Source: Oscillospiraceae bacterium (GTDB lineage Bacteria; Bacillota; Clostridia; Oscillospirales; CAG-272). From it: 42,500 bases of DNA. Each line of letters starts with the position of its first letter. Positions within the stretch are counted from its first letter, which is position 1. Below are positions 32,797-35,395 of the stretch, one piece after another. The stretch is taken from NCBI GenBank assembly GCA_015064445.1, contig SVSE01000009.1, positions 1 through 42,500 on the forward strand. Reading direction: 5' to 3'. A program made the position numbers and the translations under genes. The notes beneath the pieces were generated by a model, which did not search any database, was not told the origin of the DNA, and worked only from the letters and a program-made list of their open reading frames with translations.

Positions 32797-33633
32797 TTAA
32801 AGGACAGCTTTAAAAAATTGTACTGTTCTTTCGTTTTTCGGATTGTCAAAAACCTCGCTGGGAGTACCTTCCTCAGCGATCACTCCACCGTCCATAAATA
32901 AAACTCTTGTTCCAACCTCTCTTGCAAAGCCCATTTCGTGAGTAACAATAACCATTGTCATTCCCTCGTCAGCAAGCTCCTTAATGAGGTCAAGAACCTC
33001 GCCTACCATTTCAGGGTCAAGCGCACTTGTAGGCTCGTCAAAGAGCATTACCTTTGGATTCATAGCAAGAGCCCTTACAATAGCGATTCTTTGCTTTTGT
33101 CCACCTGACAAGGTAGAAGGATAAACATCAGCCTTTTCCTCAAGGCCGATACGACAAAGAAGCTCGTGAGCCTTGTCGGTTGCATCCTTTATTATTTGAG
33201 CCTTCGTTTTTTCTATTTCCAAAAGTGGCTTTTTATTTTTTCTGAAAAGATTTCCTGCCTTTGTAAAGAAATTCCTTGTCTTCTTAGAGCGAAGCTCGGA
33301 AAGTCCTATATGAACAGGGGCAAGAGTTATGTTTTGAATAACTGTTTTATTATTAAAAAGGTTGAATTGCTGGAACACCATTCCGATTTTACGGCGATGC
33401 TTGTTTATATCAACCTTGAAGTCTGCAAGGTCCTCTCCGTCAAAAAAGATAGAGCCTCCACTTGCGTCCTCCATACAGTTAAGACATCTCAAAAAAGTCG
33501 ATTTTCCTGAGCCTGATGGGCCAAGAACAACAACCTTTTCCTTCTCGTAAATACAGGTATTTATGTCCTTCAATACTTCGTTATCGCCGAACTTCTTATT
33601 AAGATGCTCGACTTTAATCAATACTTCTGCCAT
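32797..33633 (-). CDS. Polar amino-acid ABC transporter ATP-binding protein with an extra insert
   Basis: This 278-residue ATPase is of the GlnQ/HisP type; relatives are about 240-250. Walker A is GPSGSGKST (38-46). The Q-loop is [10 protein letters not shown], the signature [17 protein letters not shown], Walker [13 protein letters not shown], and the switch [12 protein letters not shown]. The additional length is an insert at about residues 110-150, between the Q-loop region and the helical subdomain's end. It is rich in Lys and Arg ([20 protein letters not shown]). It sits near the face that meets the permease, so it may alter coupling, which is inference. It is third in the operon binding protein-permease-ATPase-NUDIX, 11 bp after the permease. 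Confidence 0.92.
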
Positions 33634-33644
33634 AAGCTACCTCC

Positions 33645-34385
33645 TTACGATGATTTCTTGGATTTCTTCTCAGCGCCATATTTACGGTCGCTCTTATTGA
33701 GAAAGACTTCCATAATTTTAATAAGTGCTGTTATGAACAAGATTATAGCAATATAGATTATCGCCATAAACAAATATCCCGCCTCATATGTATAGCCTGG
33801 AAGCGCAATCGCTTTAACTGCGGTGTAAAGGTCATATATAGCTATGAAGCTGAGCACTGAGGTTTCCTTAATAAGCGTTATAAATTCGTTTCCAAGTGTA
33901 GGGAGAATGTTCTTTATAGCCTGTGGAATAACAATTTTAAGCATTGTTACAGAATATCCAAGACCAAGTGCACGACCTGCCTCCATCTGACCTGCGTCAA
34001 CAGAATTAAGTCCGCCACGCATAATCTCAGAAACATAAGCTCCACTATTCATACCAAAAACTGCAATACCGACGCTAACTGCCTCTACGCCCTGCACACC
34101 AAGAAGTGGCAAAAGCAAATAATAGGCGACAAGAAGCTGTACCACCATAGGCGTACCACGGAAAATCGCAACATATACGGTGCAAATCTTATCAAGCACT
34201 CTCATAGAGCGTCTATATTTAGGTGCAACCTTTATTATCGCAATCAGTGTACCGATAATGATACCTATAACAAGACCGAGCACAGCGATTTTTATAGTAT
34301 TCCAAAGTCCTGTAAAAAAGAGCTTTAGGAAGTATTCGCCAGACAAGGTCTCAAAAAATGTCTTTATTTGACTGAAGCTCAGCAT
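33645..34385 (-). CDS. Polar amino-acid ABC transporter permease
   Basis: This 246-residue protein of the HisM/GlnP family has about five membrane segments. The N-terminal motif is FFTGLWNTIKIAVLGLVIGI. The EAA loop that contacts the ATPase reads EAGRALGLGYSVTMLKIVIP, with QAIKNILPTLGNEFITLIKE after it. The C-terminus is Lys-rich and cytoplasmic (KYGAEKKSKKSS). As only one permease gene is present, it would act as a homodimer. A strong hairpin separates it from the binding-protein gene (34410-34432). Confidence 0.93.
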   Translation of the reverse strand: MLSFSQIKTFFETLSGEYFLKLFFTGLWNTIKIAVLGLVIGIIIGTLIAIIKVAPKYRRSMRVLDKICTVYVAIFRGTPMVVQLLVAYYLLLPLLGVQGVEAVSVGIAVFGMNSGAYVSEIMRGGLNSVDAGQMEAGRALGLGYSVTMLKIVIPQAIKNILPTLGNEFITLIKETSVLSFIAIYDLYTAVKAIALPGYTYEAGYLFMAIIYIAIILFITALIKIMEVFLNKSDRKYGAEKKSKKSS

Positions 34386-34409
34386 ATTAAATCCTCGTTA
34401 CACAAATCT

Positions 34410-34432
34410 CCCCCCACGCTTTCGTGTGGGGG
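34410..34432 (-). terminator. Intercistronic hairpin between binding-protein and permease genes
   Basis: CCCCC-CACG / CGTG-T-GGGGG arms with a CTTT loop and one bulged T. No T run follows on the minus strand. Such G/C-rich stems within ABC operons usually protect the 3' end of the binding-protein message or act as partial terminators, giving more binding protein than permease. Confidence 0.65.
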
Positions 34433-34444
34433 AAGTGTAAATAA

Positions 34445-35311
34445 TTATTTACCGTTTACTACTCTAACGATAGCTGTTCCAGGAGCCTCATCAACTACTA
34501 CTGCGTAAAGGTTTCCGTTTACAAGATCCTTTACTGCGTCAAGAGCAGTTGCGTAGCCCTTGCCCTCGAGGTTAGCGAAGCCATTATAGCCCCAGTCCTC
34601 GTTACCTACAACATACATACCGCCTGTTGTGCCTGTCTGGAAGCCAACCTTTGTGCCAGCTGTAAGAGCTGTGATTACAGCCTCAACCTCAGCAGCGCTT
34701 GTGCAAGCGTCAAATGCTGTGTTATCTGCTGCAACAATAATCTTCTGTGATGCGTTGTAGTAGGTATTTGAGAAGTCATAGCTTGCCTCACGGTCAGCGC
34801 TTACAGTAATACCAGCCATACCTGCATCAGCATAGCCTGCGTTTACCTCTGTGAAGATTGTGTCGAACTCAGGAAGGTTCTTAACAACAAGCTCGAGGTT
34901 TCTCGAAGCTGCATAAGCAGCAGCGATTTCAATGTCAAGACCATAGATCTTTCCGTCAGAGCCGAGATACTCAAATGGCTCGAATGGGCAGTTAGTAACT
35001 ACTACAAACTTGTTATCTGTGTTAGAAATGTTGCCAGACGCAACTGTGTAGCCAACCTTTTCGCCCTCGCCCTTGAAGTACTTATCAACGAGCTTCTGGA
35101 ATTCGCCGTTTCCTTTGATTTCAGCAAGGAATGCGTCCATATCCTGCTTAAGTGCAGTGTTGCCTTCCTTAACTACGAATGCATACTCTTCCTGTGTAAG
35201 CTGAACATCGATAATCTTTACCTTTGGTTCATCATCGCCATTACATGCAACGAATGCAAAGCAACAAACGAGCATTACAAGTGCAAGAGCAAGTGAAATA
35301 ATTTTTTTCAT
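34445..35311 (-). CDS. Amino-acid ABC transporter substrate-binding lipoprotein, circularly permuted
   Basis: The start chosen is the ATG at 35311 (288 residues), with GGAGGA upstream. The lipobox is FVAC (C23). Residues 31-80 (KIIDVQLTQEEYAFVVKEGN, then FLAEIKGNGEFQKLVDKYF) match the segment that ends ordinary family 3 binding proteins ('LKILDE.LTEEEYA.AVKKGN....L..LK.DG....I..KY'). After a linker (81-99) comes the usual beginning (KFVVVTNCPFEPFEYLG, about 101-117), then AGITVSADREASYDFSNTYY with the ligand-binding Arg, and AVVVDEAPG. The protein stops at VVNGK, exactly where that segment should follow. The whole fold is therefore present in rotated order. It is the first gene of the operon, with a consensus promoter. 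Confidence 0.9.
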   Translation of the reverse strand: MKKIISLALALVMLVCCFAFVACNGDDEPKVKIIDVQLTQEEYAFVVKEGNTALKQDMDAFLAEIKGNGEFQKLVDKYFKGEGEKVGYTVASGNISNTDNKFVVVTNCPFEPFEYLGSDGKIYGLDIEIAAAYAASRNLELVVKNLPEFDTIFTEVNAGYADAGMAGITVSADREASYDFSNTYYNASQKIIVAADNTAFDACTSAAEVEAVITALTAGTKVGFQTGTTGGMYVVGNEDWGYNGFANLEGKGYATALDAVKDLVNGNLYAVVVDEAPGTAIVRVVNGK

Positions 35312-35366
35312 CTTAAAATCCTCCATAATTTATTTTGGCGCATAGCCAAGTCTTTAAGATGTAAAC

Positions 35367-35395
35367 ATTATACAACTTTGAAATTAAGATGTCAA
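35367..35395 (-). promoter_or_regulatory. Promoter of the amino-acid ABC operon
   Basis: On the minus strand TTGACA (35390-35395), 17 bp, TATAAT (35367-35372): full consensus. Confidence 0.9.

Follow-up and report, generated by a model that had tools for sequence, protein, structure and literature searches.

A stretch of 42,500 nucleotides from an Oscillospiraceae bacterium (GenBank assembly GCA_015064445.1, contig SVSE01000009.1, positions 1 to 42,500; hereafter the window) encodes a substrate-binding protein of family PF00497, next to the other genes of an amino-acid ATP-binding cassette (ABC) importer, and the chain of this protein is circularly permuted. With A for the opening part of lobe 1, C for the stretch that closes this lobe and B for lobe 2, canonical proteins of the family run A-B-C and the window protein runs C-A-B. 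Judged from its sequence and predicted structure, it is very probably a working, lipid-anchored amino-acid-binding protein that would bind its ligand and serve in transport. The original prediction was drawn from this gene alone; the permuted order proved far wider and more recurrent than that single-gene view.

The permutation is evident from several kinds of sequence comparison. PF00497 (SBP_bac_3), the sole Pfam family above its cut-off in the 288-amino-acid (aa) protein, matches it with 94.5 bits against a curated cut-off of 26.4, as two stretches. When the genome was searched with the profile, profile positions 2–96 fell at window positions 34715–35005 (71 bits) and positions 97–131, the end of the profile, at 35072–35299, upstream in the gene (26.8 bits, E 4.7e-6). 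The profile end thus precedes its beginning, which breaks the linear order of the family by permutation while homology stands. Searches of PDB sequences with phmmer concur: residues 104–283 correspond to 14–176 of 4zv1 and residues 29–79 to 181–231 of the same chain, and the best stretch in 6a80 pairs residues 17–80 with 166–229. For the tandem protein GlnPQ SBD1-SBD2 (6h30), a single match (residues 43–202 to 187–334) spans the junction of the two substrate-binding domains (SBDs); this junction has the same C-then-A order as the window protein, although it joins two complete domains and the window protein holds one. Matches of hidden Markov models (HMMs) of the separate segments are likewise out of order. 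Circular permutation, as originally proposed, is therefore confirmed, and a chance origin is excluded by conservation of the order in other species.

The coordinates given earlier for the gene (34445 to 35311) hold, on the minus strand; a plus-strand reading of this interval was ruled out by stops in its translation. The protein begins with MKKIISLALALVMLVCCFAFVAC. The lipobox and consensus promoter claimed from the sequence were both recovered, with Cys23 of the FVAC lipobox invariant in all 30 rows of alignment A1 and TTGACA-17-TATAAT agreeing at 12 of 12 positions; promoter-like sites between 32300 and 35600 number nine against 6.3 (standard deviation 2.9) in shuffled sequence, and the one at 35367–35395 alone scores 12/12. 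R174, D274, T169, T228 and T229, which we take from work on LAO and GlnH to be the positions that hold the alpha-amino acid, are invariant in A1, and N107 presumably stands at the place of LAO Asp11, a weak hint against a cationic ligand. C108, in the motif TNCPFEPFE, is also invariant, and at least 90% of these 30 rows keep C203 of lobe 2. The ratio of nonsynonymous to synonymous substitution rates (dN/dS), calculated against loci L034 and L035, is 0.02–0.12 in segments C, A and B and 0.28–0.32 in the linker between C and A.

AlphaFold2, run on the 30 aligned sequences of A1, folds the window protein confidently with both segments included (predicted local distance difference test score, pLDDT, 87), which agrees with the complete fold envisaged for the permuted chain; the model has the two-lobed amino-acid-binding fold. 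Homology and model confidence together support the view that residues 31–80 complete lobe 1. Several results nevertheless weigh against this interpretation. Prediction from the single sequence is poor (pLDDT 36), so that the predicted fold depends on the alignment. Structure aligners keep chain order, and their matches are dominated by model residues 95–288: among the 50 matches listed, Foldseek gave query-normalised template modelling (TM) scores of 0.35–0.48, from a chain-order aligner by which the rotated chain was not aligned whole, and the aligned range of VIA-align begins at residue 92 or later in 45 of 50 matches listed and at 52–53, again in chain order, in five. Segment C is weak by itself against single PDB chains (the second stretch has an i-Evalue of 0.039 in 4zv1 and is non-significant in 2pvu). 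Finally, synonymous divergence (dS) had reached or exceeded saturation, and three of the five pairs gave no value for several segments (L036, L038 and L039, for most segments).

The search for relatives with the same order found C-A-B in 29 named loci and in genomes across the order and class of the source organism. Surveys with A1 scored at most six to eight candidates per genome, and their genome counts are lower bounds. Match spans place C-A-B in 25 of 57 genomes, the source genome among them (21 of 29 in its genus). The order gave at least 32 such genomes out of 394, every one of which was read as DNA (one has an insertion in A); the class gave at least 29 out of 291, 24 of them read as DNA, and a phylum sample at least two out of 398 (the source genome and G644). 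The class rows left unread are G855, G951, G1068, G820 and G907, and G855, G820 and G907 start in the C-A-B register of the doubled profile described below. A tblastn search of plasmids for named records gave one partial match (query 99–283), in Monoglobus pectinilyticus. The source genome's other PF00497 gene (L072, G000:C6:28000-33000) has the canonical order; 208 of its 287 open-frame codons lie after the first ATG, GTG or TTG, so its 5′ end may be interrupted.

Rotation in this family takes more than one form. By segment HMMs, the distinct proteins comprise 78 C-A-B, 26 A-B-C (one a fragment), 17 B-C-A and four B-C-A-b; nine further proteins with other segment calls are fragments, single segments and L094, with a split A. 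The last (L094:1492-2607) is a C-A-B protein with an insertion that splits the HMM match of segment A in two. A permease is fused to a single B-C-A domain in L115, L119 and L157 (the permease of L157 by reading), and also in two Riflebacteria-type genomes (L188 and L189; permease by match, C-A by HMM, B by reading). Tandem chains also occur: L063 (620-4288) encodes 1223 aa with four B-C-A repeats and L064 (1561-3801) 747 aa with two, each with a permease at its end by reading and with some weak B matches, while L125 and L126, from the same order of bacteria as the window, are [ABC]2 and [ABC]3 fusions. The single-contig genome of L208 carries a 763-aa open reading frame (ORF) of tandem rotated (B-C-A) binding domains adjoining a lone B-C-A gene.

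Breakpoints were located with a doubled canonical profile (A2, six proteins), on which the start of a match shows the rotation. As a control, the canonical register was recovered for 25 of the 26 A-B-C proteins, and the remaining one, the fragment, was placed as a part of it. Single runs starting at 145–171 were obtained for 64 of 78 C-A-B proteins (14 yield the A-B part alone as best domain) and runs starting at 83–109 for 13 of 17 B-C-A proteins (four give a part alone); one of the four B-C-A-b proteins gave a rotated run. Among the matches listed for 118 class genomes, which favour low E-values and are not independent events, C-A-B starts (162–169) occur in at least 12 genomes, nine of them read as DNA, and B-C-A starts (94–99) in at least six plus G897 at 106, all seven read and all B-C-A. 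No start among these matches lies inside A save that of G879, a 165-aa fragment at a contig end that is A-B-C by reading; 13 listed rows starting at 196–215 run to the profile end and are thus each a whole A-B-C, as was G902 among them when read as DNA. The matches listed for 249 phylum genomes include as rotated forms G644 (C-A-B) and G668 and G502 (B-C-A), besides an unread chain of 779 aa in G556. At least three breakpoints produce B-C-A: before the DLxGKxIGVQ stretch (e.g., L118, L122, L149), after the FDxCxTxxDV helix (L016, L106, L109) and in mid lobe 2 (L167, L170, L209). Every breakpoint read lies in lobe 2 or at its edge, and the start positions on the doubled profile indicate that breaks gather at the two lobe crossings, given the lobe limits and anchor site that we presume from the canonical topology.

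Phylogenetic trees were built from columns in canonical order, leaving out the first 23 of B. Near-copies above 92% identity had been dropped (132 to 127 rows), and proteins with irregular segment calls (the L063 repeats, L078, L094 and fragments) were excluded; the careful trees also omit the long-branch rows L064, L074, the L124 fragment, L127 and L019_2447, with L167 and L170 further left out of a 56-row tree. Groups were thinned above 62% identity in that tree and above 66% in an earlier careful tree. The 56-row tree has six changes for C-A-B (6–6 in bootstraps), of which the starred branches force five, and seven for B-C-A, of which they force three; a quick tree of 127 rows has six (four forced) and five (four forced), respectively. 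These counts cover both gain and loss of an order, which are indistinguishable on these trees. Proteins of different order pair closely, as do C-A-B L107 with A-B-C L130 (99/92) and C-A-B L123 with A-B-C L032 (96/90), and approximately unbiased (AU) tests on a 53-row tree reject a single clade for C-A-B (p 0.0003, with one long row, L022, in the group) and for B-C-A (p 1e-72). It seems that such rearrangements arose several times, and at different points of the chain, among related bacteria, of which many come from animal guts. One B-C-A group (100/96) nests in the main C-A-B group of the 56-row tree (whole 99/93) through forks of middling support, and here an already rotated protein was likely, if not firmly so, rotated again. 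Riflebacteria-type proteins branch among rows titled Clostridia and Bacilli (L059 joins the group of the window protein at 97/86 in the 56-row tree), a position that suggests transfer from Clostridia.

The binding-protein gene adjoins genes for a PF00528 permease and a GlnQ-like ATPase, the arrangement of an amino-acid ABC importer operon (Table 1). Across the 29 named C-A-B loci the permease comes next after the gene in 25 and the ATPase is present in 23 (the L037 and L046 sequences stop short of one); in four (L045, L048, L054 and L057), binding protein and permease form a single chain of 526–542 aa. Three genomes of the source organism's genus have operons in which a single permease-ATPase pair is preceded by two binding proteins that differ in chain order (L066, C-A-B and B-C-A; L069, B-C-A and C-A-B; L068, C-A-B and A-B-C). 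The C-A-B and canonical proteins before the same permease and ATPase in L068 suggest that docking is kept despite rotation: if both proteins of such an operon feed that permease, rotation would be no bar to docking. The tether from the lipidated Cys to the fold has a median of six residues in C-A-B proteins (quartiles 5–8, range 3–20, n = 78) and 15 in A-B-C proteins (quartiles 4.5–31, range 1–51, n = 25). The lipobox pattern missed four of 128 proteins, and tether lengths of B-C-A proteins were not used because their fold start is poorly located (negative distances). The shorter C-A-B tether is a lead only, as some canonical tethers are equally short and the rows are related. The hairpin between the binding-protein and permease genes possibly sets a higher level of the binding protein. 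The ATPase insert in the window is basic and 32 residues long; related operons have an insert at the same place, of very variable length and in some nearly none.

Table 1. Features of the importer locus in the window.
Feature	Position	Strand	Basis
C-A-B PF00497 substrate-binding lipoprotein gene, 288 aa	34445..35311	-	ORF, PF00497 and PDB-sequence matches, alignment, AlphaFold2
Signal peptide and lipobox FVAC	35243..35311	-	lipidation predicted at Cys23
Segment C, residues 30-84, normally the C-terminal part of lobe 1 (closing strand and helices)	35060..35224	-	PDB-sequence and profile matches, AlphaFold2
Linker, residues 85-98, between old C- and N-termini	35018..35059	-	alignment, dN/dS
Segment A, residues 99-194, normal protein start (first part of lobe 1)	34730..35017	-	PF00497, PDB-sequence matches
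Segment B, residues 195-288, lobe 2, now the C-terminus	34448..34729	-	PDB-sequence matches
Consensus sigma-70-type promoter TTGACA-17-TATAAT, 12/12	35367..35395	-	promoter scan
GGAGG ribosome-binding site, 8 nucleotides before the ATG at 35311	35320..35324	-	read in DNA
Terminator-like hairpin between binding-protein and permease genes	34408..34435	-	terminator-like pattern; z -4.14, 0 of 200 shuffles fold as well
Amino-acid ABC permease (PF00528; HEQRo_perm_3TM)	33645..34385	-	profile matches
Amino-acid ABC ATPase (GlnQ-like), insert near residues 113-144	32797..33633	-	profile matches, locus comparison

In this protein, segment C directly follows the predicted lipid anchor, a linker of about 14 residues leads to A and the chain ends with lobe 2. 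C-A-B order makes lobe 1 (C and A) and lobe 2 (B) each nearly continuous in sequence. The anchored N-terminus would probably lie where lobe 2 and the hinge meet, not at the old N-terminus. The protein would be expected to close on an alpha-amino acid as its canonical relatives do and to hand it to the adjacently encoded permease, driven by the ATPase encoded next. Its order could have arisen by fusion of tandem copies followed by trimming, as originally proposed, and fusions of this kind exist in the same order of bacteria (L125, L126). A broader and more tentative idea, which we consider somewhat doubtful, is that rotation in PF00497 is both recurrent and selected: independent events would relocate the chain ends out of lobe 1 and into lobe 2, mostly at the two hinge crossings, the lobes would become continuous, a lipid anchor or permease fusion would pull on lobe 2, and some transporters would work with a pair of binding proteins, each tethered by a different lobe.

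Other explanations of the window gene fare less well. Segment C could complete lobe 1 of a neighbouring molecule in a domain-swapped dimer; the C-A joint is a variable linker and a swap is compatible with a monomer prediction, but confidence in the monomer model stays high across both segments, and we regard a swap as unlikely. The protein might instead act mainly as a receptor or sensor. No permease or ATPase was found in the examined flanks of four of the 29 named loci, the Riflebacteria-type L059–L062 (three titled Candidatus Riflebacteria, with L061, RUG334, grouping with them in the tree), and a search at E 1e-10 for relatives of the window permease found none in two of these four genomes. 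In L060 the C-A-B gene lies among genes of TPR, PP2C-like and pilin-like types. A permease nevertheless follows the gene directly in the window and in most named loci, which makes a sensor very unlikely as the main role there.

Tandem fused binding domains in the same order of bacteria (L125, L126) would fit a decayed, functionless remnant of two such proteins, yet an open frame, a consensus promoter, low dN/dS, an operon and conservation over many families leave this reading with hardly any probability. An assembly or binning chimera might be suspected because the source genome consists of 13 contigs and the 29 named loci are, by their titles or isolate names, mostly metagenome-derived. The same order in all 29 and in the single-contig genomes G274, G993 and G1021 refutes assembly error as the explanation, and the probability of a chimera is close to nil. 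A permuted, working binding protein thus remains the favoured reading.

Canonical PF00497 proteins (GlnH, HisJ, LAO, ArtJ and GlnPQ SBD1/SBD2) resemble the window protein in sequence family, predicted fold, conserved ligand-site positions and an operon with a PF00528 permease and a GlnQ-like ATPase. The window protein differs from them in its C-A-B order, in termini that probably lie near the edge of lobe 2 and the hinge, and in the shorter tether of C-A-B proteins. The suggestion that no permuted example had been described stands for PF00497, as no report was found in the literature searched (subscription journals lay mostly outside its coverage), but natural permutation is on record in other binding-protein families. 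PMC4990184 describes TpMglB-2 (Tp0684, “Type Ic / cluster Bc”), which carries a lipid anchor, belongs to a probable ABC importer and still binds its ligand, glucose, although its chain is permuted in nature; it has relatives in treponemes and Gram-positive bacteria, and the authors propose the name “Type Ic” and raise a link to anchoring. It thus shares natural circular permutation and a lipid anchor with the window protein, but has a type I (cluster B) fold, belongs to another family and is broken at another point; its permuted part is only 13% identical to EcMglB, whereas the moved segment of the window protein is still recognisable in sequence. With PF00497 alone above the Pfam cut-off, the window protein falls outside the MglB-type cluster B as that text defines it (PMC4990184). 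The CPSARST section of PMC2395249 relates glycine-betaine-binding proteins, molybdate-binding proteins and CysB by circular permutation, so that here too two-lobed binding proteins and proteins akin to them differ by natural permutation. Those cases were detected from structure, below 24% identity; the section does not name PF00497 and, unlike the present set, gives no recurrence, breakpoint survey or operon (PMC2395249). “Permuted” in the accessible text of PMC9732360 refers to GFP. A permuted binding protein is therefore not new as such, and its repeated, varied occurrence in PF00497 appears to be new within the literature searched.

Importers of amino acids are widespread among bacteria, and the fold of their binding proteins is a textbook example that also serves as a biosensor scaffold. 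A linear profile cuts the rotated PF00497 proteins into two fragments. The rotated forms in Clostridia, many from animal guts, with their several breakpoints and with different rotations sharing an operon, offer natural material for studying the origin of circular permutation, the breakpoints that a two-lobed protein can bear and whether docking depends on the point of membrane attachment. If some transporters do serve binding proteins tethered by different lobes, two-lobe tethering at one permease would be a natural experiment on tethering geometry versus delivery.
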